DNA of 35,344 nucleotides, taken from contig JAISMC010000080.1 in NCBI GenBank assembly GCA_031276965.1, forward strand, positions 1 through 35,344. Reading direction: 5' to 3'. This stretch comes from Treponema sp. (GTDB taxonomy: Bacteria > Spirochaetota > Spirochaetia > Treponematales > Breznakiellaceae). Numbering within the stretch: position 1 is the first letter of the stretch; the number at the start of each line of letters is the position of its first letter. Position numbers and translations under genes: made by a program. Positions 1 through 18,175 of the stretch are shown here, piece after piece. The notes beneath the pieces are model-generated. The model saw only the letters and a list, made by a program, of their open reading frames with translations, did no database searches and had not been told where the DNA came from.

Positions 1-858
1 CAGCCGGTAAGTTCTCCTCCTTACCGGGTTGTTATCGGTGTATTACTGCTGTCGCTTTTGGTATCGTATCTTGCGGCCCCCGGAAATCCGGCGTTCCGCA
101 AGAAGCTGTACCACAAGGCGCAGTTTCTCTTTGCCTGCGGAACGGCTTTGACCCTGTGGGACCTCCTCACCTCGAAAAGCGCCCTCCTGCCCTTGCCCTA
201 TTTTCCCAGCATGGCGGAGATCGTCAATGTCATGTTTCAGGACCGTGTCCTTCTCCTGCGGAGTACCTTCTACTCCATGCGGCTCTTCTTTGCCGGGCTT
301 GTTACCGGCACGGTTCTGGGCCTTGCCACGGGGATACTTATCGGCTGGTACCGGCAGTGGGACTATTGGCTTTCGCCGGTGATCCGGGTAACCGGCATCA
401 TCCCCGCTGTGGCCTGGCTGCCCATAGCCCTCCTGGTTTTTCCCAACAGTTTTACCACCGGCATGTTTCTCATTTTCATTTCTTCCTGGTTTCCGGTTTC
501 CTCCATGATGGCCGCGGGGATCATCGCCACCCCGAAAAGCTATTTTGAAGCCGCCAGGACCCTGGGGGCGGACAACCGCTTTCTCCTCTTTCATGTGGCC
601 ATACCCAACGCTATGCCCAGCGTGTTTACCGGCGTTATGACCGCCTGCGCCTTTTCTTTTACCACCCTGATCGTTTCGGAGATGGTGGGAGCCAAGGCGG
701 GCCTGGGTTTTTACATCAACTGGGCCAAGGGCTGGGGCGCCTATTCAAAAGTATACGGCGCCATCATCATCATCGCCGTTGAGTTTGCCCTGATCCTCGC
801 GCTGATAAATGTGATACGCCGCTCGGCGCTGCGCTGGCAGAGGGGGATCATAAGATGA
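1..858 (+). CDS. ABC transporter permease, NitT/TauT/Ssu type (5' end outside window)
   Basis: This is an inner-membrane permease of the binding-protein-dependent family that imports nitrate-, taurine- or alkylsulfonate-like small molecules. The reading frame is open back to base 1, so the TTG at 58 used by the ORF track is not the real start and the gene begins upstream. The visible part has an N-terminal hydrophobic segment, then the usual run of membrane helices. The cytoplasmic EAA loop that contacts the ATPase is seen as EAARTLGADNRFLLFHVAIP. The stop overlaps the start of the ATPase gene (ATGA), so the two are translationally coupled. The solute-binding protein is probably upstream and not visible. 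The substrate cannot be read from the permease; the sulfur-metabolism neighbours favour an organosulfur compound, which is inference. Confidence 0.9.
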   Translation, partial: QPVSSPPYRVVIGVLLLSLLVSYLAAPGNPAFRKKLYHKAQFLFACGTALTLWDLLTSKSALLPLPYFPSMAEIVNVMFQDRVLLLRSTFYSMRLFFAGLVTGTVLGLATGILIGWYRQWDYWLSPVIRVTGIIPAVAWLPIALLVFPNSFTTGMFLIFISSWFPVSSMMAAGIIATPKSYFEAARTLGADNRFLLFHVAIPNAMPSVFTGVMTACAFSFTTLIVSEMVGAKAGLGFYINWAKGWGAYSKVYGAIIIIAVEFALILALINVIRRSALRWQRGIIR

Positions 859-1634
859 GTGTTTTAATAAACGTAAAGAATGTTACAAGGATATACCGGG
901 ATACCGGCGGCAATCCGGTCTATGCCCTGAAGGCGGTTAACCTTGACATAGAGGAAGGGGAATTTATTTCGATCATCGGTCCGTCGGGCTGCGGCAAAAC
1001 AACGCTGCTGCGCCTCATCGCCGGCCTTGACCGGCCCGAGGAGGGAACCCTCTCCATTGACGGCCAGGAGATACGGGGTCCAAGTTATGAGCGGGGCTAT
1101 ATTTTTCAGCAGGCCGCCCTGTTCCCCTGGGCCACGGTGTACGACAATGTGGCCCTGGGTCTGAGAGCCCGGAAGATCTTTTCAGAAAATAAAAACAGGG
1201 TGCAGGACTTCATCAACATGATCGGCCTTGACGGTTTTGAAAGGGCCTATCCCCATGAAATATCCGGGGGCATGGCCCAGCGGGTTGCCATCATCCGATC
1301 CCTCATTAACGAGCCCAAGGTACTGCTCCTGGACGAACCTCTGGGGGCCCTGGACGCCTTTAAACGGATAGAACTCCAGGCGCAGCTTATAGGGATGTGG
1401 AAAAAAACCGGGGCCACCATGGTCATGGTTACCCATGACGTGGACGAGGCGATAGCCCTGAGCGGCCGTATCGTGATTATGACCCCCCGGCCCGGCCGTA
1501 TCGTCCGTATTGTCAAGGTTCGTCTTAATTCCGCAGGGAACCGGAACAGCGATGACTTTATCGCCCTGCGCAGGACGATTCTTGAGGAATTGCATTTGGT
1601 TATTTCCAGGCCCCAGCCTGAATATAACATATAG
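855..1634 (+). CDS. ABC transporter ATPase, NitT/TauT/Ssu type
   Basis: This is the cytoplasmic ATPase that powers the permease just upstream. All nucleotide-binding signatures are present: Walker A GPSGCGKTT near residue 43, the Q-loop in YIFQQAALFPW, the signature ISGGMAQRVAI, Walker B VLLLDEPLGALD, and the switch histidine in MVTHDVDEA. At 259 residues it has the usual family length. The start ATG overlaps the permease stop by 4 bases. The order permease-ATPase-O-acetylhomoserine sulfhydrylase on one strand, only 60 bases from this stop to the next start, suggests that transport is tied to sulfur assimilation. The specificity (sulfonate, thioether or other) cannot be fixed from this subunit. 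Confidence 0.93.
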   Translation: MSVLINVKNVTRIYRDTGGNPVYALKAVNLDIEEGEFISIIGPSGCGKTTLLRLIAGLDRPEEGTLSIDGQEIRGPSYERGYIFQQAALFPWATVYDNVALGLRARKIFSENKNRVQDFINMIGLDGFERAYPHEISGGMAQRVAIIRSLINEPKVLLLDEPLGALDAFKRIELQAQLIGMWKKTGATMVMVTHDVDEAIALSGRIVIMTPRPGRIVRIVKVRLNSAGNRNSDDFIALRRTILEELHLVISRPQPEYNI

Positions 1635-1637
1635 AGC

Positions 1638-1668
1638 CTGTTCCAAAGCCCGATTGGTCTTGGAACAG
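1638..1668 (+). repeat. Intergenic hairpin, member of a dispersed family
   Basis: Arms CTGTTCCAA and TTGGAACAG pair perfectly, and the stem continues inward with one mismatch (AGCCC/GGTCT) around a GATT loop. It lies between the ATPase stop and the sulfhydrylase RBS and has no following T-run, so it is unlikely to be a simple terminator. It could be an mRNA stabiliser or processing site. The same core recurs at 20413, 20489 and, more diverged, 29095. Confidence 0.7.
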
Positions 1669-1694
1669 CTTCATGGCCTAAAAAGGAGGTTTTT

Positions 1695-2993
1695 ATGGCT
1701 TATCATTTTGACACATTGAAAATTCGGGCGGGTTACAATCCCGCGGAACACCGGCAGTCGGTACAGGTGCCCATCTATCAAACCACCGCCTACGAATTCC
1801 GGGACACCAAAAATGCGGACAGTCTCTTTGCCTTTACCGAGGCGGGCTTCCTCTACACCAGGGTGAACAACCCCACCGTGGACGTGCTGGAACAGCGGGT
1901 GGCGGCGCTGGACGGCGGGAAGGCGGCGCTGGGCCTGGGGTCGGGCATGGCGGCCATATCCTACACCCTGCTCAACCTTGCGGAAGGGGGCGGGCGCATT
2001 CTCACCACCCCGTACCTCTACGGCGGCAGCTTCGACAGTTTTGGCCGGCTGTACCCCAGTTTCAATATTCACCTTGACTTTTCTCCCAACTTTAACGATC
2101 CGGCAAAACTGGAGACAAATATTAAAGAAGACACCAGAGCGATCTTTGTGGAATCCGTCAGCAACCCCACCGGTGTCGTGGCGGACCTGGAGGTCCTGGC
2201 CGCCCTGGCGCACAAACACGGTATTCCCCTGGTGGTGGACAATACCTTTGGTACTCCCTATCTTCTCAATCCCATTAATTACGGGGCGGATCTGGTGCTG
2301 TATTCGGCCACCAAAGCCCTGAACGGCCACGGGAACCTTATCGCCGGGCTTGTGGTGGAGGCGGGGGATTTTCCCTGGGACAACGGCAAATTCCCCCAAC
2401 TAATACAGCCCGAATATGTACTCCGCGACAGGGAAACGGACCGTAAACGGGGTTTTCTGGAAACCTTTCCCGATGCGCCCTTCGTTACCCGCATCCGCCT
2501 GGTGTACCTCAACTACTTCGGCGCGGCCCTGGGGCCCTTCGACGCCTACCTTGCCCTCATCGGCCTTGAGACCCTTTCGGAGCGGGTGGCAAAACAAGTT
2601 GCCAACGCCCAAAAAATTGCGGAGTATCTGGAAAAACATCCCCGGGTGGAATGGGTAAAGTATCCGGGGCTAAGATCCGATCCCAACTATACCCTGGCGA
2701 AGAAGTATTTCCCCAAAGGTCCCGGTTCGGTGCTGTCCTTCGGTTTCAAGGGAACTCAGGAACAGGGGGACAAATTCCTCAATGCCATTGAACTGTTGAG
2801 TTACCATGTAAATGTGGGAGACGCCAGAACCCTTATCGTCAATTCCCCCCGGACCACTCACGGGGAGCTTACCCCGGAGGAACAGCAGTTTGCGGATATT
2901 CCCCAAAACCTTATCCGTATCTCCGCAGGGCTGGAGGACGCCGGGGACATCATCGCCGATCTTGATCAGGCCTTTGTGAAGGCCTTTAATTAA
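1695..2993 (+). CDS. metY: O-acetylhomoserine sulfhydrylase (methionine synthesis, PLP enzyme)
   Basis: This cytoplasmic PLP enzyme of the Cys/Met metabolism (gamma-family) transfers sulfide or methanethiol onto O-acetylhomoserine, giving homocysteine or methionine. The 432-residue length is typical. The N-terminus TLKIRAGYNP and the phosphate-binding LGSGMAAI are family hallmarks, and the PLP lysine lies in YSATKALNGHG. A strong AAGGAGG site sits 5 bases before the ATG. It follows the ABC ATPase on the same strand and ends at a perfect intrinsic terminator. The nitrogenase-like genes then start from their own promoter. With a methanethiol-releasing reductase next door, direct methylthiolation to methionine would be the natural job here; that link is inference. 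Cystathionine gamma-synthase-like activity is less likely on length and motif. Confidence 0.92.
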   Translation: MAYHFDTLKIRAGYNPAEHRQSVQVPIYQTTAYEFRDTKNADSLFAFTEAGFLYTRVNNPTVDVLEQRVAALDGGKAALGLGSGMAAISYTLLNLAEGGGRILTTPYLYGGSFDSFGRLYPSFNIHLDFSPNFNDPAKLETNIKEDTRAIFVESVSNPTGVVADLEVLAALAHKHGIPLVVDNTFGTPYLLNPINYGADLVLYSATKALNGHGNLIAGLVVEAGDFPWDNGKFPQLIQPEYVLRDRETDRKRGFLETFPDAPFVTRIRLVYLNYFGAALGPFDAYLALIGLETLSERVAKQVANAQKIAEYLEKHPRVEWVKYPGLRSDPNYTLAKKYFPKGPGSVLSFGFKGTQEQGDKFLNAIELLSYHVNVGDARTLIVNSPRTTHGELTPEEQQFADIPQNLIRISAGLEDAGDIIADLDQAFVKAFN

Positions 2994-2997
2994 TGGG

Positions 2998-3032
2998 AAC
3001 CTCTAAAAACTTCAGTTTTTAGAGGTTTTCTT
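2998..3032 (+). terminator. Rho-independent terminator after metY
   Basis: Perfect 13-bp arms AACCTCTAAAAAC and GTTTTTAGAGGTT enclose a TTCA loop and run into TTTTCTT. The terminator lies 5 bases after the metY stop. It separates the transport/metY transcript from the nitrogenase-like genes. Confidence 0.9.
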
Positions 3033-3052
3033 ACCCCTGGGAGAAAATCGTA

Positions 3053-3080
3053 TTACCATAATGTCTGTTCACATTATAAA
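3053..3080 (+). promoter_or_regulatory. Candidate promoter of the nitrogenase-like pair
   Basis: TTACCA, a 16-bp spacer and TATAAA form a moderate sigma70-like promoter just after the terminator. The expected start point falls near 3087, about 20 bases before the ATG. The -10 lies inside the palindrome listed next, so the two would compete for binding. Confidence 0.5.
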
Positions 3081-3086
3081 CAGACA
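3062..3086. promoter_or_regulatory. Palindromic operator-like site over the promoter -10
   Basis: TGTCTGTT and AACAGACA form perfect 8-bp arms around 9 bases (CACATTATA). The site covers the candidate -10 of the NifD-like gene, the layout expected for a repressor operator. The bound regulator is not identifiable; a sulfur- or thiol-responsive factor is a guess from context. Confidence 0.5.
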
Positions 3087-3105
3087 CTAATTAAACGGAG
3101 AAACC

Positions 3106-4596
3106 ATGAGTGAAATTAACCTGAGGGCCACGCAGGCTCCGGTACGGGAAACGCGGCTCGGGTCCATCACCGGCTATGTAGGAAGCGCCGGGGATCTGGT
3201 AAGCTGCGCCCGGCGGGGGACCCTGCGGGACAGGAGCCGCAGCTTCAGCCAGTGTATGGGCTGTTCCACCTCCAATGCGGCCTGTACCGTCGTTCTGATC
3301 CGTGATGCGGCGGTGATAAGCCACGGACCGGTGGGCTGCGCCGGATGCCTCCACGAATTCGCCTTTACCTATCAGGTAAATGGCATACACCGGAATGTGG
3401 ACAATCCGGAACAGCGCCGTATCTTTACCACTAATGTAAACGAAAGGGATACGGTCTACGGGGCGGGGCAGAAACTTGCCGGAACGATCCGTGATGTGTA
3501 CCGGCGGGTAAAACCGGCGGCCATATTTATTATCACCACCTGCGCCTCCGGCATCATCGGGGACGATGTAGAAGGTATTGCCGGGGAGGCGGAAGAAGAA
3601 ATCGGCATCCCCGTGGGGGCCATATTCTGCGAGGGCTTCCGCTCGAAGATATGGACCAGCGGCTTTGATTCGGGCTACCACGGCATTGCCCGGAAGCTGA
3701 TCAAAAAACCGGTAAAAAAACAGGAGGACCTGGTTAACATCGTCAACTTCTGGGGTACCGATGTATTCAGCCGCTGGTTCAAACGGCTGGGCCTCCGGGT
3801 CAATTACCTTACCCCCTACGCTACGGTGGCCCAAATCGCTTCGTCCTCCGAAGCGGCCCTTACCATCCAGATCTGCGCGACCCTGGGGTCCTACCTGGGG
3901 GCCGCCCTGGAACAGGAATTCGGCGTACCGGAAATAAAGGTGTCCGCCCCCTACGGCATCGCCCAGACCGAACGCTGGTTCCGGGAATTGGGCCGCCTGA
4001 CGGGCCGGGAAGAGGCGGCGGAGCTTTTTCTCCGTGAAGAGCGGGAACGGTGGCTCCCGGACATAGAAACACTGCGGGAAAAACTTTCCGGCAGGACCGC
4101 CTATGTTACCGCCGGGGCCTCCCACGGCCATTCCCTTTTGGGCCTGCTGCAGGAACTGGGGATGAAGCCCCTGGGGGCCGCCATCTTCCACCACGATCCG
4201 GTCTACGACAACGGCGCCGAATCCGCCGACACCCTGCAGAATGTGGTGAAGGATTACGCCGACGAGATCAGGGGCTACAATGTCTGCAACAAGCAGGAAT
4301 TTGAACTGGCCAACATCCTTAACAGGGTCCGGCCCGACATACTCCTGGCCCGGCATGGGGGCATGACCCTCTGGGGCGCCAAATACGGCATACCGTCGCT
4401 TTTAATCGGGGACGAACATTTCGGCATGGGCTACGAGGGAATCGCCGGTTACGGAAAACGTATCCTTGAAACAATCGAAAACGACGAATTTGTGAAGAAT
4501 CTTGCAAAGCACGCCATCAATCCTTATACCGAATGGTGGCTGGCGCAGGATCCCTTCGCTTTCCTGGAAGACGGCGCGCATGTCAGAGCATATTGA
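3106..4596 (+). CDS. Nitrogenase-like component 1 alpha (NifD-like), methylthio-alkane reductase-type candidate
   Basis: This is the D-type catalytic subunit of a nitrogenase-superfamily enzyme, 496 residues. Cysteines for a P-cluster-type centre are present: Cys50/Cys53 (SQCMGC), Cys78 (ISHGPVGC) and Cys146 (TTCASGIIGDD), matching NifD Cys62, Cys88 and Cys154. Cys257 (TIQICATLGSYLG) aligns with NifD cofactor ligand Cys275, and His438 (GDEHFGMGYEGIAGYG) is a candidate for His442. The CEGFR stretch aligns at Cys175, but NifD Gln191 and His195 read Trp183 and Phe187, so dinitrogen fixation is unlikely. These are alignments by eye. A GGAG site precedes the ATG, and the 3' end overlaps the K-like gene by 17 bases. 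Alternatives are another group IV nitrogenase-like enzyme or a NifE-like scaffold. MetY beside it favours a Mar-type C-S reductase. Confidence 0.8.
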   Translation: MSEINLRATQAPVRETRLGSITGYVGSAGDLVSCARRGTLRDRSRSFSQCMGCSTSNAACTVVLIRDAAVISHGPVGCAGCLHEFAFTYQVNGIHRNVDNPEQRRIFTTNVNERDTVYGAGQKLAGTIRDVYRRVKPAAIFIITTCASGIIGDDVEGIAGEAEEEIGIPVGAIFCEGFRSKIWTSGFDSGYHGIARKLIKKPVKKQEDLVNIVNFWGTDVFSRWFKRLGLRVNYLTPYATVAQIASSSEAALTIQICATLGSYLGAALEQEFGVPEIKVSAPYGIAQTERWFRELGRLTGREEAAELFLREERERWLPDIETLREKLSGRTAYVTAGASHGHSLLGLLQELGMKPLGAAIFHHDPVYDNGAESADTLQNVVKDYADEIRGYNVCNKQEFELANILNRVRPDILLARHGGMTLWGAKYGIPSLLIGDEHFGMGYEGIAGYGKRILETIENDEFVKNLAKHAINPYTEWWLAQDPFAFLEDGAHVRAY

Positions 4597-5914
4597 ACAG
4601 CAGCGCTACATGTGCGCCATCGGCGCCATGCAGACCGTGGTAGCCATTCCCCGGGCGATTCCCATACTCCACTCGGGGCCGGGCTGCGGCAGCATGACCG
4701 CCGGTTTTTTTGAACGTTCCCGGGGCTATTCCGGAGGCGGTACCGCGCCGTGTACCAACTTTACCGAATCCGATGTGGTGTTCGGCGGGGAAAACAAATT
4801 AGCCGGGCTGATTGCCAATTCCTACCGAATACTGAAAAGCGACCTTCAAGTGGTTTTGCCCGGCTGTACCTCCGCCATCGTGGGGGACGACATCGACAGT
4901 ATCGTGAAAAAATTCGCCGGCGAGGGGAAGCCCATCGTCTTTGCCGATACCCCCGGTTTCAAGTACAGCAACTATGAAGCCCACAGCGAGATCGTCAAGG
5001 CGATTTTGAAACAGTACGTTGCCCGCTTTGCCCCGGCGGAACAGGCGAAGGACGGGCGGCTGGTAAATCTCTTTGCGTCCATCCCCTATCAGGATCAATT
5101 CTGGAAGGGCAATCTGGAAGAGTTGAAGCGCCTTGTCGAAGGAATAGGCCTCAAGGTCAACATCCTCTTCGGCCCCCGTTCACGGGGCGTTGAAGAATGG
5201 AAGGAGATCCCCAAAGCGGCCTTCAACATATTGGTGTCCCCCTGGTTCGGCTTGCCCATCGTACAGTACCTGGAAGAGACCTACGGCCAGCCTTTTTTCC
5301 GGTTTCCCTACCTGCCCATAGGCGGCAATGAAACCACCCGGTTTCTCCGGGGACTTGCGGCTTATGCCGGGACACAGGGCGCGGAACTCGACGGCGGCCG
5401 CGCCGAGGCGTTTATCAAACAGGAGGAACAGGTCTTTTACGAGGAAATCGACAACCTCGCCACCTTCCTGCTGGAATTCCGTTATGGTCTTCCCTCCTGG
5501 ATGCACATCATCCACGACGCAAGTTATGTGCTGGGCATGACGGCATTCCTCCTTAACGAAGCGGGCCTCGTTCCCAAGGAGCTTTTTATTGCTGACAACA
5601 CCCCCGAGCCTTTCCGGGAGGAAATCCTGAAAACCGCTGCCGGATTTTCCGCAAAGCGGACCATCCCCGTTGAGTTCCAACATGACGCGGGCCTGGCCCA
5701 GGCGGCAATAGCGGCGGCGGACCACGAAGGCCGGGGGCTCATCATCGGCAGCGGCTGGGACAAGGACCTGGCCCGGAAGAAGGGCTGCGATTTCCTGTCC
5801 GCCGCCCTGCCTTCACCCTACCGGCTGGTTATGACCACAGGCTACGCCGGCTACAGCGGGGGCCTCCGGCTTATTGAGGATATCTACAACACCGCCCTTG
5901 CCGGCTACCGGTAG
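4580..5914 (+). CDS. Nitrogenase-like component 1 beta (NifK-like), methylthio-alkane reductase-type candidate
   Basis: This is the K-type partner expected to form an alpha2beta2 component with the preceding gene. I place the start at the ATG at 4580 rather than 4502. This gives MSEHIEQQRYMCAIG, matches where the family domain begins, removes a 26-residue low-likelihood extension, and leaves a GGAAG about 10 bases upstream. The protein is then 444 residues. P-cluster-type cysteines are Cys12, Cys36 (HSGPGC) and Cys96 (LPGCTSAIVGDD), and Cys58 lies in a position also seen in NifK. The ESDVVFGGENKL and IVGDD blocks are classic component-1 motifs. It is shorter than NifK because the NifK N-terminal extension is missing, as in other nitrogenase-like K subunits. 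The overlap with the D-like gene implies coupled translation. A reductase (NifH-like) partner is not in the window. Confidence 0.8.
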   Translation: MSEHIEQQRYMCAIGAMQTVVAIPRAIPILHSGPGCGSMTAGFFERSRGYSGGGTAPCTNFTESDVVFGGENKLAGLIANSYRILKSDLQVVLPGCTSAIVGDDIDSIVKKFAGEGKPIVFADTPGFKYSNYEAHSEIVKAILKQYVARFAPAEQAKDGRLVNLFASIPYQDQFWKGNLEELKRLVEGIGLKVNILFGPRSRGVEEWKEIPKAAFNILVSPWFGLPIVQYLEETYGQPFFRFPYLPIGGNETTRFLRGLAAYAGTQGAELDGGRAEAFIKQEEQVFYEEIDNLATFLLEFRYGLPSWMHIIHDASYVLGMTAFLLNEAGLVPKELFIADNTPEPFREEILKTAAGFSAKRTIPVEFQHDAGLAQAAIAAADHEGRGLIIGSGWDKDLARKKGCDFLSAALPSPYRLVMTTGYAGYSGGLRLIEDIYNTALAGYR

Positions 5915-14668: not shown

Positions 14669-15179
14669 GCCGGGCTTTTGCATCCCCCGGCATAAGGCGC
14701 CGGCCCCGGAAGGGCCCGCCCTGAGGGCGGCATACCTTATCCGGTCCCCGGAACAGCCCGTCCGGTCCTCAGAATGACGTATCCGGTCTCCAGAATGAGC
14801 TATCCGGTCTCCAGAATGGTCCATCCGGTCCTCAGAATGACGTATCCGGTCTCCAGAATGAGTCATCCGGTCTCCAGAATGAGTCATCCGGTCTCCAGAA
14901 TGACGTATCCGGTCTCCAGAATGAGTCATCCGGTCTCCAGAATGAGTCATCCGGTCTCCAGAATGGTCCATCCGGTCTCCAGAATGAGTCATCCGGTCTC
15001 CAGAATGAGTCATCCGGCCCATGGAATGGCTTGTTCCCCTGAGCAAAGGCCCCGTTCAGGCGGAGCGGCGGGGACGCTTTAACTGTACCCTTCATGGCCG
15101 GGATTGGAGACGGCAAGGTTCGGGGGAGGCCCCGGCGGACATACCGTCCCGCCGGGGGGCCCCGCTTCGCTTACTCGTC
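14669..15179. other. 511-bp convergent intergenic region with hairpins and a minisatellite
   Basis: No gene is supported here. Just after the TPR gene are two stem-loops: GCCGGG..CCCGGC at 14669-14691 and CCGCCC-TGA-GGGCGG at 14716-14730. The 21-bp tandem array follows, then about 100 bases of GC-rich unique sequence. The last ~50 bases (from 15132) are a copy of the sequence that also lies between the two lipoprotein genes at 16386. Long ORFs on both strands exist only because 21 is divisible by three. Confidence 0.8.
14740..15033. repeat. 21-bp tandem repeat array (12 good units plus diverged ends)
   Basis: The unit reads TCCGGTCTCCAGAATGAGTCA and begins at 14761, 14782 and so on to 14992. 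Degraded units lie at 14740 and 15013. The last six bases come as three types: A (GACGTA), B (GAGTCA, once GAGCTA) and C (GGTCCA). Their order is A B C, A B B, A B B, C B B, so a 63-bp higher-order unit is visible. Units 1 and 4 preceding their A ends also share CCTCAG instead of CTCCAG. Such arrays change copy number easily. Confidence 0.95.
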
Positions 15180-16355
15180 CTAATCGGCTATGTTGCCGTG
15201 CAAGTCAATGTCATGCCGTGAAGTAGCGCCCTCGATATAGATACTGCCGTAGCCGTTGGGGGGGGTGTAATAATTCGGGGAGTTATTGGTGATGATTCCG
15301 CCGTTCCATTCCAGGAAATGATTGGCGTCATTCTTTAGCATAATGCTCCCGCCGTTACCCCCGCTATTACCCGTTATAAGCCCGCCATTTATGGTAAGGC
15401 TGGCGCCAACGCCGGCGCCAGGAGAAGCTATGTATACCGGAGCGGCATCGTTATTATTTGCCGAACAGTTTGTAATAGTCCCGCCGTTGATTACCGCGGT
15501 TCCCCTGATTTCCAGCGCCGGAGACTGGGACCACATATAGCTGCGATTGTTTCGCATGGTAACGCCCTCATTCATAGTAAAGTGACCGCCCTGGTTTACT
15601 CTAACAAAGGGCTCGCCGGAGTTGGATCGTCCCTCAAACACAATGCTGCCGGACCCAACCCCGCCCGGGGTACCCAGGGTCAGCTTTCCCCAAGTAGCAG
15701 GCGCAGGCCCTACCTCAAATATTCTGCCAGTACCATACTCAGTTGCCCTAAGGGTAAGCGTTCCGCCGGCCGGGGCAAGGATGGTGATCGCCTTGTTTTC
15801 TATATTAACGGAATCATAAGAATTCATACCAAAACTGCCGGCGAGAATCAGGACAGAGCCGGTCGCGGCGTCCTCTATCATGGCGCGCAAAGCGTCTCCA
15901 TCGCTGTTACTGCCGTCGCCGATGAGACTGGCTTGTTTTACCGTTACCGTATAGGGCCGGGACAAACCGTTAGCCGTTACCGTGTAGGTCCGGGGCCCGG
16001 AAAAATCAGTCCCCCCCGCCGTGGTAACCACAGCCCCGGCGGGGCCGGCGGCGGTTACGGGGGCGGGCAGGCTGGTAAAGGCTGCCGCAGGTACGATTAC
16101 CATAACGGTAAGGGCGGCTTTGTTTATCTTCCCCGTTCCGGCCAAGGCCCCGCTCCCTGTGCCGTAACGTTTTCCATCGATGTCAAAGTAAAAGGCCTCG
16201 AAGGCCGGAACCGGAACCGGCGCCGGTTCCGCGCCGGTCCCCTCGTCAAAAAGGGGGTCCACCACCTTCTCCATCCACGGATTCCCGCAGGAGCCGGCAG
16301 CCAAAACGGCGCAGCATACCGCCGTCAGCGCCCGGAACACAGCTTTTGTTTTCAT
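15180..16355 (-). CDS. Surface lipoprotein with beta-helix-like repeats, copy 1
   Basis: This 391-residue exported lipoprotein has the N-terminus MKTKAVFRALTAVCCAVL, lipobox LAAGSC with Cys at about 23, then a short Pro/Val linker. An Ig-like/DUF5018-like segment (GTDFSGPRTYTVTANGLSRP) is followed by a right-handed beta-helix-like region. That region has Asn/Gly-rich rungs: MNEGVTMRNNRSYMW, IRGTAVINGGTITNC, LTINGGLITGNSGGNGG and WNGGIITNNSPNY. It probably sits on the outer membrane, perhaps as an adhesin or carbohydrate-binding protein; no catalytic residues can be named. It is a tandem copy of the next gene, with its start exactly 1254 bases away and identical length. An adjacent fragment of the barrel-protein gene end marks the duplication junction. 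Confidence 0.75.
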   Translation of the reverse strand: MKTKAVFRALTAVCCAVLAAGSCGNPWMEKVVDPLFDEGTGAEPAPVPVPAFEAFYFDIDGKRYGTGSGALAGTGKINKAALTVMVIVPAAAFTSLPAPVTAAGPAGAVVTTAGGTDFSGPRTYTVTANGLSRPYTVTVKQASLIGDGSNSDGDALRAMIEDAATGSVLILAGSFGMNSYDSVNIENKAITILAPAGGTLTLRATEYGTGRIFEVGPAPATWGKLTLGTPGGVGSGSIVFEGRSNSGEPFVRVNQGGHFTMNEGVTMRNNRSYMWSQSPALEIRGTAVINGGTITNCSANNNDAAPVYIASPGAGVGASLTINGGLITGNSGGNGGSIMLKNDANHFLEWNGGIITNNSPNYYTPPNGYGSIYIEGATSRHDIDLHGNIAD

Positions 16356-16370
16356 GTTTCCCTCTTTCCT

Positions 16371-16396
16371 TTCTATAATCTGAAACCGGCGGACAT
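16371..16396 (-). pseudogene. Relic of the barrel-protein 3' end at the duplication junction
   Basis: Reading on the minus strand, this stretch encodes (G)MSAGFRL and a stop, matching the C-terminus GVSAGFRF-stop of the gene at 17624-18175. It sits upstream of lipoprotein copy 1 exactly where the intact barrel gene ends upstream of copy 2. It shows that the duplication began inside the barrel gene. Confidence 0.65.
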
Positions 16397-16433
16397 ACCG
16401 TCCCGCCGGGGGGCCCCGCTTCGCTTACCCGTC

Positions 16434-17609
16434 CTAATCGGCTGTATTGCCGTGCAAGTCAATGTCATGGGTATGATTAGGGATATCAAATGGAAACTCG
16501 TCCTGGATATAGATACTGCCGTAACCGTCGGGGGGGGTGTAATGATTCGGGATGTTATTGGTGATGGTTCCGCCGTTCCATTCCAGGAAATGATTGGCGT
16601 CATCCCTTAGCATAATACTCCCGCCCGAATTAACCCCGAAGTTACCCGTTATAAGCCCGCCATTTATGGTAAGGCTGGCGCCGGTAATGCCGCCATCAGA
16701 AGAACCTAAGTATATTGGCGCTGAATCACCACCTTTATTTGCCGAACAGTTTGTAATGGTCCCGCCGTTGATTACCGCGGTTCCCCTGATTTCCAGCGCC
16801 GCAGCCATGGCGCTATGAGTGGTGTTGTTTTGCATGGTAACGCCCTCATTCATAGTAAAGAAACCGTCCTTTAGTATTGAAACAAAGGGCTCGCTGTAGG
16901 AGGCTTGTCCCTCAAACACCATGCTGCCGGACCCAGCCCCGCCCAGAGTCAGCGATCCCCCGGCCCGTACCTCAAACACTTTGCCATAAAATAAAGAAAC
17001 AGACTCTTGCTTAAAGGTAAGCGTTCCGCCGGGCGGGGCAAGGATGGTGATCGCCTTGTCTATAAAAATGGAGTTAGGCCCAGAACGAACAGGGAAAGTC
17101 CCGGCGAGAATCAGGGTTTCGCCGGGACTGGCGCCGGCTATCCGGGCGCGCAGCTCGTCTTCAGCGGCGTAAGTGCCGTCGCCGATGAGACCAGCTTGTT
17201 TTACCGTTACCGTATAGGCCCGGGACAAACCGTTAGCCGTTACCGTGTAGGTCCGGGACCCGGAAAAATCAGTCCCCCCCGCCGGGCTAACCACGGCCCC
17301 GGCGGGGCCGGCGGCGGTTACGGGGGCGGGCAGGCTGTGTAAGGCCGCCGTACCCGGTACGATTACCGTAACGGTAAGGGTAACTTTGTTTATGTTCCCC
17401 GTTCCGGCTAAGGCCCCGTCCCCCGCGCCGTAATGTTTTCCACCGATGTCAAAGTAAAAGGCCTCGAAGGCCGGAACCGGAACCGGGCCGGTCCCATCGT
17501 CAAAAAGGGGGTCCACCACCTTCTCCATCCACGGATTCCCGCAGGAACCGGCAGCCAAAACGGCGCAGCATACCGCCGTCAGCGCCCGGAACACCGCTTT
17601 TGTTTTCAT
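16434..17609 (-). CDS. Surface lipoprotein with beta-helix-like repeats, copy 2
   Basis: Paralogue of the preceding entry, also 391 residues from the ATG at 17609. The ORF-track start at 17726 lies inside the upstream gene and is not used. It has the same signal peptide and lipobox (LAAGSC). The linker PVPVPAFEAFYFDIGGKHYG comes next, then TVTANGLSRAYTVTVKQ, then beta-helix-like rungs such as MNEGVTMQNNTTHS, INGGTITNCSANKGG and INGGLITGNFGVNSGG. The C-terminus HDIDLHGNTAD matches copy 1 (HDIDLHGNIAD). It differs mainly in the central third and by a small insertion before the C-terminus (QDEFPFDIPNHT). It follows the barrel-protein gene by 14 bases, so the three may be co-transcribed. Function unknown; cell-surface exposure is inferred. 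Confidence 0.75.
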   Translation of the reverse strand: MKTKAVFRALTAVCCAVLAAGSCGNPWMEKVVDPLFDDGTGPVPVPAFEAFYFDIGGKHYGAGDGALAGTGNINKVTLTVTVIVPGTAALHSLPAPVTAAGPAGAVVSPAGGTDFSGSRTYTVTANGLSRAYTVTVKQAGLIGDGTYAAEDELRARIAGASPGETLILAGTFPVRSGPNSIFIDKAITILAPPGGTLTFKQESVSLFYGKVFEVRAGGSLTLGGAGSGSMVFEGQASYSEPFVSILKDGFFTMNEGVTMQNNTTHSAMAAALEIRGTAVINGGTITNCSANKGGDSAPIYLGSSDGGITGASLTINGGLITGNFGVNSGGSIMLRDDANHFLEWNGGTITNNIPNHYTPPDGYGSIYIQDEFPFDIPNHTHDIDLHGNTAD

Positions 17610-17623
17610 GTTTCCTTCCCTTG

Positions 17624-18175
17624 CTAGAATCTGAAACCGGCGGATACACCCGCTCCGGCTATATACGGCCATCCCGTCCGGATAATGCTGTCCACATACC
17701 AATGCCGGCCCAAGAGAAAGCGCCATCCCGCCATAAGTCCCACCGACAAGGTCCCCGATTCCGCCGGAACGGAAACGCCCTCCAGATTAAACAGCGCCAG
17801 TCCCGCATTAAGCTGGGCGAAGAGGCCCTCCCGTTCCTTGCCGGGAAGTACATATACCCGGAGGAAGGTGGTCGCTTCCAGGGTGGTAATGTTTTCGCCG
17901 TCCACTAAACAGGCCACCATCAATCCCAGCGCCGTAGGGCCGCCGCCTCCCCCAAGGATAAATCCGCCCCCGTAGGCTGCGGTCTTCCGGCTGTAGAAGG
18001 AGGCTTCCGCCAGCGGTCCCGCGAAAAACTCGTTCTTCGCCTGGGCCGGCAGGGCGCCGGCGGTAAAAAGCATGAGGAACAGCAGAAGCTTTGCCCCCAA
18101 AAACCGGGTCCTTTTTGCCTGATACGCTCGTAAATTGACAAGAGGAAGGGACTTTTCACGCAAACAACCTTCCAT
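17624..18175 (-). CDS. Small outer-membrane beta-barrel-like protein
   Basis: This is a protein of up to 183 residues with a signal-peptide core KLLLFLMLFTAGALPAQA. The mature part has alternating hydrophobic strands (AASFYSRKTAAYGGG-like, TFLRVYVLP, LFAQLNAGLALFNL, TLSVGLMAGWRFLLG) and ends in GVSAGFRF. The C-terminal Phe is the usual signal for outer-membrane barrel assembly. The annotated ATG at 18175 gives a long N-region. A TTG start at about residue 26, after AAAAAGGAC, would give a normal signal peptide, so the start is uncertain. Small barrels of this kind recur in treponemes with no known role. The 3' end is copied at 16371-16396. Confidence 0.6.
   Translation of the reverse strand: MEGCLREKSLPLVNLRAYQAKRTRFLGAKLLLFLMLFTAGALPAQAKNEFFAGPLAEASFYSRKTAAYGGGFILGGGGGPTALGLMVACLVDGENITTLEATTFLRVYVLPGKEREGLFAQLNAGLALFNLEGVSVPAESGTLSVGLMAGWRFLLGRHWYVDSIIRTGWPYIAGAGVSAGFRF

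Follow-up and report, generated by a model that had tools for sequence, protein, structure and literature searches.

Two neighbouring lipoprotein genes, P0001 and P0002, in a 35,344-nucleotide stretch of spirochete DNA (the window) are a tandem duplication, with the crossover inside TCCGCCGG. As a whole, the locus is probably explained by duplication and then loop divergence of display lipoproteins, which perhaps work with the probable outer-membrane barrel encoded upstream (P0003). The window is read here as a recent expansion of a cassette of small outer-membrane protein (OMP) and display lipoprotein. The duplication itself is ordinary biology; it is a clean, readable case of a display lipoprotein copied and diversified with its breakpoint preserved, and what merits further work is the conserved gene pair in which it sits.

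The tandem duplication and its breakpoint

The host is a Treponema-like, termite-gut-type spirochete (genome of 2.70 Mb, 85.6% complete). On the minus strand the cassette runs from P0003 through P0002 to P0001, with the following features:

17624..18175, minus strand: P0003, first gene of the cassette; small protein of outer-membrane beta-barrel type, 183 aa, ending VSAGFRF and stop
16434..17609, minus strand: P0002, upper copy; lipobox AAGS/CGNPWMEK, linker and Ig-like-type region, solenoid rich in beta-strands starting near residue 148
16373..16399, minus strand: junction relic GGTATGTCCGCCGGTTTCAGATTATAG, reading GMSAGFRL and stop; captured P0003 3' end joined to the upper copy's 3' flank
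16386..16393, minus strand: crossover microhomology TCCGCCGG, also present at the OMP gene end (17637-17644) and in the distal flank (15132-15139)
16386..16416, no strand assigned: G+C-rich hairpin (CCGGCGG/CCGCCGG) 3' of the upper copy, with no run of T after it
15180..16355, minus strand: P0001, lower copy; signal, lipobox and anchor as in P0002, solenoid diverged
15132..15162, no strand assigned: hairpin 3' of the lower copy, as behind the upper copy

Both open reading frames encode exactly 391 aa, as first annotated, and the proteins are 73% identical. The 1254-base offset that the first-pass annotation had given for start, stop and downstream flank was recovered for all three, but it is 1251 for the 5' leader, which includes the captured tail of the OMP gene, and internal offsets range from 1254 to 1281. 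The 3' flanks of the two copies are 96% identical. Of 51 junction bases, 50 are identical to those of the lower copy's distal flank, up to TCCGCCGG/GGTATGTCCGCCGG, where the match stops. From GGTATGTCCGCCGG onward, the flank of the upper copy corresponds to the P0003 3' end and the upper-copy leader (GGTGTATCCGCCGGTTTCAGATTCTAG versus GGTATGTCCGCCGGTTTCAGATTATAG). In translation, the relic G-M-S-A-G-F-R-L-stop aligns with G-V-S-A-G-F-R-F-stop of the neighbouring P0003. The exact stretch common to both sites is the 8 bp of TCCGCCGG, which P0003 carries in its final codons and the hairpin in its 3' arm. The two-sided homology of the junction bears out the earlier proposal of a tandem duplication with a captured neighbour fragment, in which MSAGFRL had been taken as the trace of the mechanism.

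Tandem duplication is therefore concluded from the hybrid junction with its neighbour's tail and from the 96% identical 3' flanks. The same two observations stand against two older paralogues having ended up side by side; an identity of just 73% would suit such an origin, but it is already contradicted by the junction and is extremely improbable.

The ancestral unit would have consisted of two genes, the small OMP and the lipoprotein, followed by the 3' hairpin. Either an unequal exchange or slippage of the template would have taken place between two sites, TCCGCCGG at the end of the OMP coding sequence and TCCGCCGG in an arm of the hairpin. It copied a 1.25-kb segment with ribosome-binding leader, lipoprotein gene and hairpin, as the junction sequence shows. 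Both copies remained in frame and retained the anchor, as their sequences show. A single event of this kind is the simplest history. In a search of the whole genome, the hairpin was found in two copies only, 15132..15162 and 16386..16416. With no run of T behind it, the one 3' of the upper copy is not a canonical terminator.

Divergence of the lipoprotein copies

Both copies start with MKTKAVFRALTAVCCAVLAAGS/CGNPWMEK, a signal of the signal peptidase II type with a basic start, a hydrophobic stretch and a lipobox ending in Cys, and both were classed as bacterial lipoproteins by sequence test. Neither copy contains a domain of Pfam or NCBIfam, and a scan of the genome collection with the lipoprotein returned two loci only, matching just the N-terminal anchor. 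The predicted structure is strand-rich (pLDDT about 58-89 per ten-residue block, residues 151-350). Among its top-ranked fold matches are the parallel beta-helix enzymes PL6 lyase (prob 0.96, E 5e-3), chondroitinase B (prob 0.97) and iota-carrageenases; the matches are weak, none reaching E<=0.001 and their TM values not exceeding about 0.35. The initial description as a beta-helix lipoprotein thus held for the lipoprotein, by its lipobox, and the beta-helix is probable, on fold matches without significant E-values. A right-handed beta-helix is likely from the model, and the predicted short repeated strands and NGGxIxxN-type coils are like those of the named enzymes. The lipoproteins of the window differ from these enzymes in being lipid anchored and in having no significant sequence family or identified catalytic residues. 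Both proteins are inferred to lie in the outer membrane, probably exposed at the surface, and to serve for display or binding. They may cooperate with the barrel encoded upstream, and the duplication would broaden the cell's repertoire for binding or display.

Ten indels separate the copies, all multiples of three. The missing codons (4+4+3+1 in one copy, 1+2+1+1+1+6 in the other) cancel exactly, as had been stated in the first annotation. Since all ten are whole codons, both copies look functional. Over the whole gene, dN was 0.189 and dS 0.145 (dN/dS 1.31, P 0.05-0.06), in a comparison limited to two sequences, which allows no polarisation of rate or direction. Codons 1-60, with signal, lipobox and anchor, had a dN of 0.016. 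In residues 148-285, a block first noticed in the same data as tested, six alignment treatments gave dN values of 0.27-0.42 and dS values of 0.12-0.18; dN/dS was 2.3-2.5 in five of the six and 1.5 (P=0.057) in the gap-rich sixth. Outside this block it was 0.68-0.76. When the densest window was picked by total differences, blind to substitution type, nonsynonymous changes were in excess at P 0.004-0.005 (100-140 codons) and P 0.03 (60 codons).

Nonsynonymous differences were clustered (p<2e-4; 0 of 5000 permutations reached the maximum). The divergence is thus not uniform, the variable block is real, and the conserved ends and differing middle noted at first reading were recovered, with the clustering at residues ~148-285. 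By predicted structure, the copies differed at 57 of 111 aligned residues in loops versus 23 of 107 in strands (p 2.3e-6, gaps counted). Synonymous differences showed no significant clustering (permutation P 0.39 when tested for excess and 0.23 when tested for deficit); they were slightly denser inside the block than outside (odds 2.1, P 0.07). No third or donor copy was found in the genome (85.6% complete), where the next match has 36% identity.

These results were applied to the earlier suggestion of gene conversion, for which a search for recombination tracts and for further silent copies had been proposed. Conversion or cassette exchange would mean that one copy received its middle from elsewhere, or that the ends were homogenised between copies. 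Conserved ends with a variable middle and the slightly raised synonymous density in the block are in keeping with such a history; the silent differences are not significantly clustered and the 85.6% complete genome offers no donor, and for these two reasons gene conversion was rejected as very unlikely. Selection on the loops is favoured over it on the same grounds, and the pattern fits loop diversification on a kept scaffold, not tract replacement.

The closer competitor is relaxed constraint only, in which loops drifted neutrally while helix core and anchor were constrained, without positive selection. Overall dN is near dS (P 0.06), solenoid loops tolerate change, and the ratio in the block falls to 1.5 (P 0.057) with the gap-rich alignment. 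Neutral drift alone, however, should not raise dN well over dS, as it is in the block (about 2.4 in most alignments), nor does it agree with the P values of 0.004-0.03 in the densest window. Relaxed constraint alone is accordingly rated as rather unlikely, although appreciable. The copies show divergence mainly by amino-acid-changing substitutions and in-frame indels in loops of the first half of the predicted beta-helix; in the preferred reading, selection would have acted on these loops.

In antigenic-variation loci of spirochetes of the vlsE and tprK type, a surface protein has conserved ends and a variable interior. The lipoprotein pair is alike in both respects and differs in having neither silent cassettes nor a donor copy, and in its unclustered synonymous sites. 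Recombinational antigenic variation was not assigned to the locus, with two copies only in the 85.6% complete genome (next match 36%) and synonymous P values of 0.39 and 0.23.

The putative outer-membrane protein and its adjacent lipoproteins in relatives

P0003 has 183 aa and a C-terminal F, and stays below the Pfam cut-offs (DUF3575, E 0.02). One member of its family matches PF13505 (OMP_b-brl) at 8e-6, and some relatives (L028, L034) have an apparent OmpA-like C-terminal domain. The structure model of P0003, made without alignment, has a pLDDT of 39, too low to be of use. Small barrels of the OMP_b-brl/OmpA-like type (PF13505) resemble P0003 in size and in the C-terminal aromatic ending, but P0003 itself reaches no Pfam cut-off. 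A profile search detected P0003 relatives in 129 of 200 genomes from the host's bacterial family, with up to 11 members per genome, and a second treponeme family has them as well; the relatives searched contained no other genome of the host's genus.

A lipoprotein gene lies directly behind the OMP gene for 47 of 77 distinct family members with readable downstream DNA. Of these, 42 were collected in a first pass that searched for Asn at mature position +3, so that the motif count is partly by construction, and five were added by eye (L090, L097, L109, L150, L153). In the second pass just one adjacent lipoprotein was without Asn at +3 (L090, reading C-N-P). Among the 42, Pro follows at +4 in 36, and hydrophobic or aromatic residues occupy +5 and +6. 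The mature N-terminus C-x-N-P-hydrophobic-hydrophobic behind the OMP occurs in two treponeme families (for example L024, L029, L081, L105, L145, L149). For control, substrate-binding lipoproteins of the same bacterial family were inspected, which read C-x-K in 9 of 12 and carry Asn at +3 in 1 of 12. In five cases the lipoprotein gene starts at -4 and so overlaps the stop codon of the OMP gene, an arrangement that suggests coupled translation.

The bodies of the paired lipoproteins are unrelated, while the mature start is nearly always C-x-N-P-hydrophobic; body types, named by eye, include a beta-helix (L024), repeated InlB-like modules (L029) and an Ig-like body (L032). Tandem lipoprotein paralogues behind the OMP were seen at L080, L085, L089, L090, L097, L102 and L105. 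Because such paralogues recur in relatives, the duplication in the window is regarded as one recent instance of a recurrent event. At L089 (G033:C131), in a genome with 11 OMP-profile matches, the entire cassette of OMP and lipoprotein is repeated in tandem. L105 (G207:C16) has three consecutive lipoproteins with bodies of 658, 555 and 284 aa and the common anchor C[E/N]NPLMEKIL, which seems to have been reused with different domains.

The motif also occurs apart from the OMP. L011 has three tandem C-x-NPWM lipoproteins with no P0003-type OMP in front, and in five OMP-profile-negative genomes C-x-N-P-F lipoproteins, C-E-N-P-F among them, were found at 3 of 30 sites examined; the degenerate pattern search is noisy and gave no reliable genome-wide motif count. 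These C-x-N-P-F lipoproteins weaken the idea that the motif strictly depends on the OMP. Since the motif is also present in genomes lacking the OMP, a dedicated export pair of barrel and lipoprotein is put forward as a hypothesis only. A still wider proposal, that small barrel and C-x-N-P-anchored lipoproteins form a system targeting, flipping or docking interchangeable display domains on the spirochete surface, is speculative and unlikely; no Slam-like translocon is known for that surface.

A known pairing of this kind is that of Slam, with a surface lipoprotein gene adjacent in 185 of 353 Slam loci (PMC5449769). Slam consists of an N-terminal domain and a DUF560 domain and was described in Proteobacteria (PMC5449769); according to a review, no Slam was found in spirochetes (PMC7857515). 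Both Slam loci and the P0003 pair have an outer-membrane barrel gene beside a lipoprotein gene in many genomes. P0003 differs in that neither the Slam N-terminal domain nor DUF560 was found in it. With 183 aa and no DUF560 or other Pfam match over cut-off, it was ruled out as a Slam. The barrel-lipoprotein pairing is worth testing because surface-lipoprotein pairs such as Slam were identified through gene adjacency (PMC5449769) and no Slam is known from spirochetes (PMC7857515). No description of the OMP-lipoprotein pair was found in open-licence papers; the pair is widespread and apparently undescribed. With the same barrel family ahead of lipoproteins in two treponeme families, and a common anchor motif on unrelated bodies, gene pair and motif are offered as test material for the surface placement of spirochete lipoproteins.

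Other loci of the window

Positions 14761-15017 hold about twelve 21-bp units, each of TCCGGTCTCCAGAATG plus 5 bases from a small set (AGTCA, GTCCA, ACGTA, AGCTA, GTTCA, AGCCA). Arrays of 9-12 copies of this unit occur at six places in the genome, namely in the window and on contigs C1, C34, C87, C143 and C171. Within positions 1-5914, a NifD/NifK-like pair (3106-4596, 4502-5914), far under every NCBIfam cut-off, adjoins an O-acetylhomoserine sulfhydrylase-type gene and a taurine/nitrate-type ABC transporter. The pair seems to form a nitrogenase-like reductase of organic sulfur and not an enzyme of N2 fixation. The gene at 25159-26544 matches the NCBIfam model of a nickel-dependent putative hexonate epimerase with 514.5 bits (cut-off 500).
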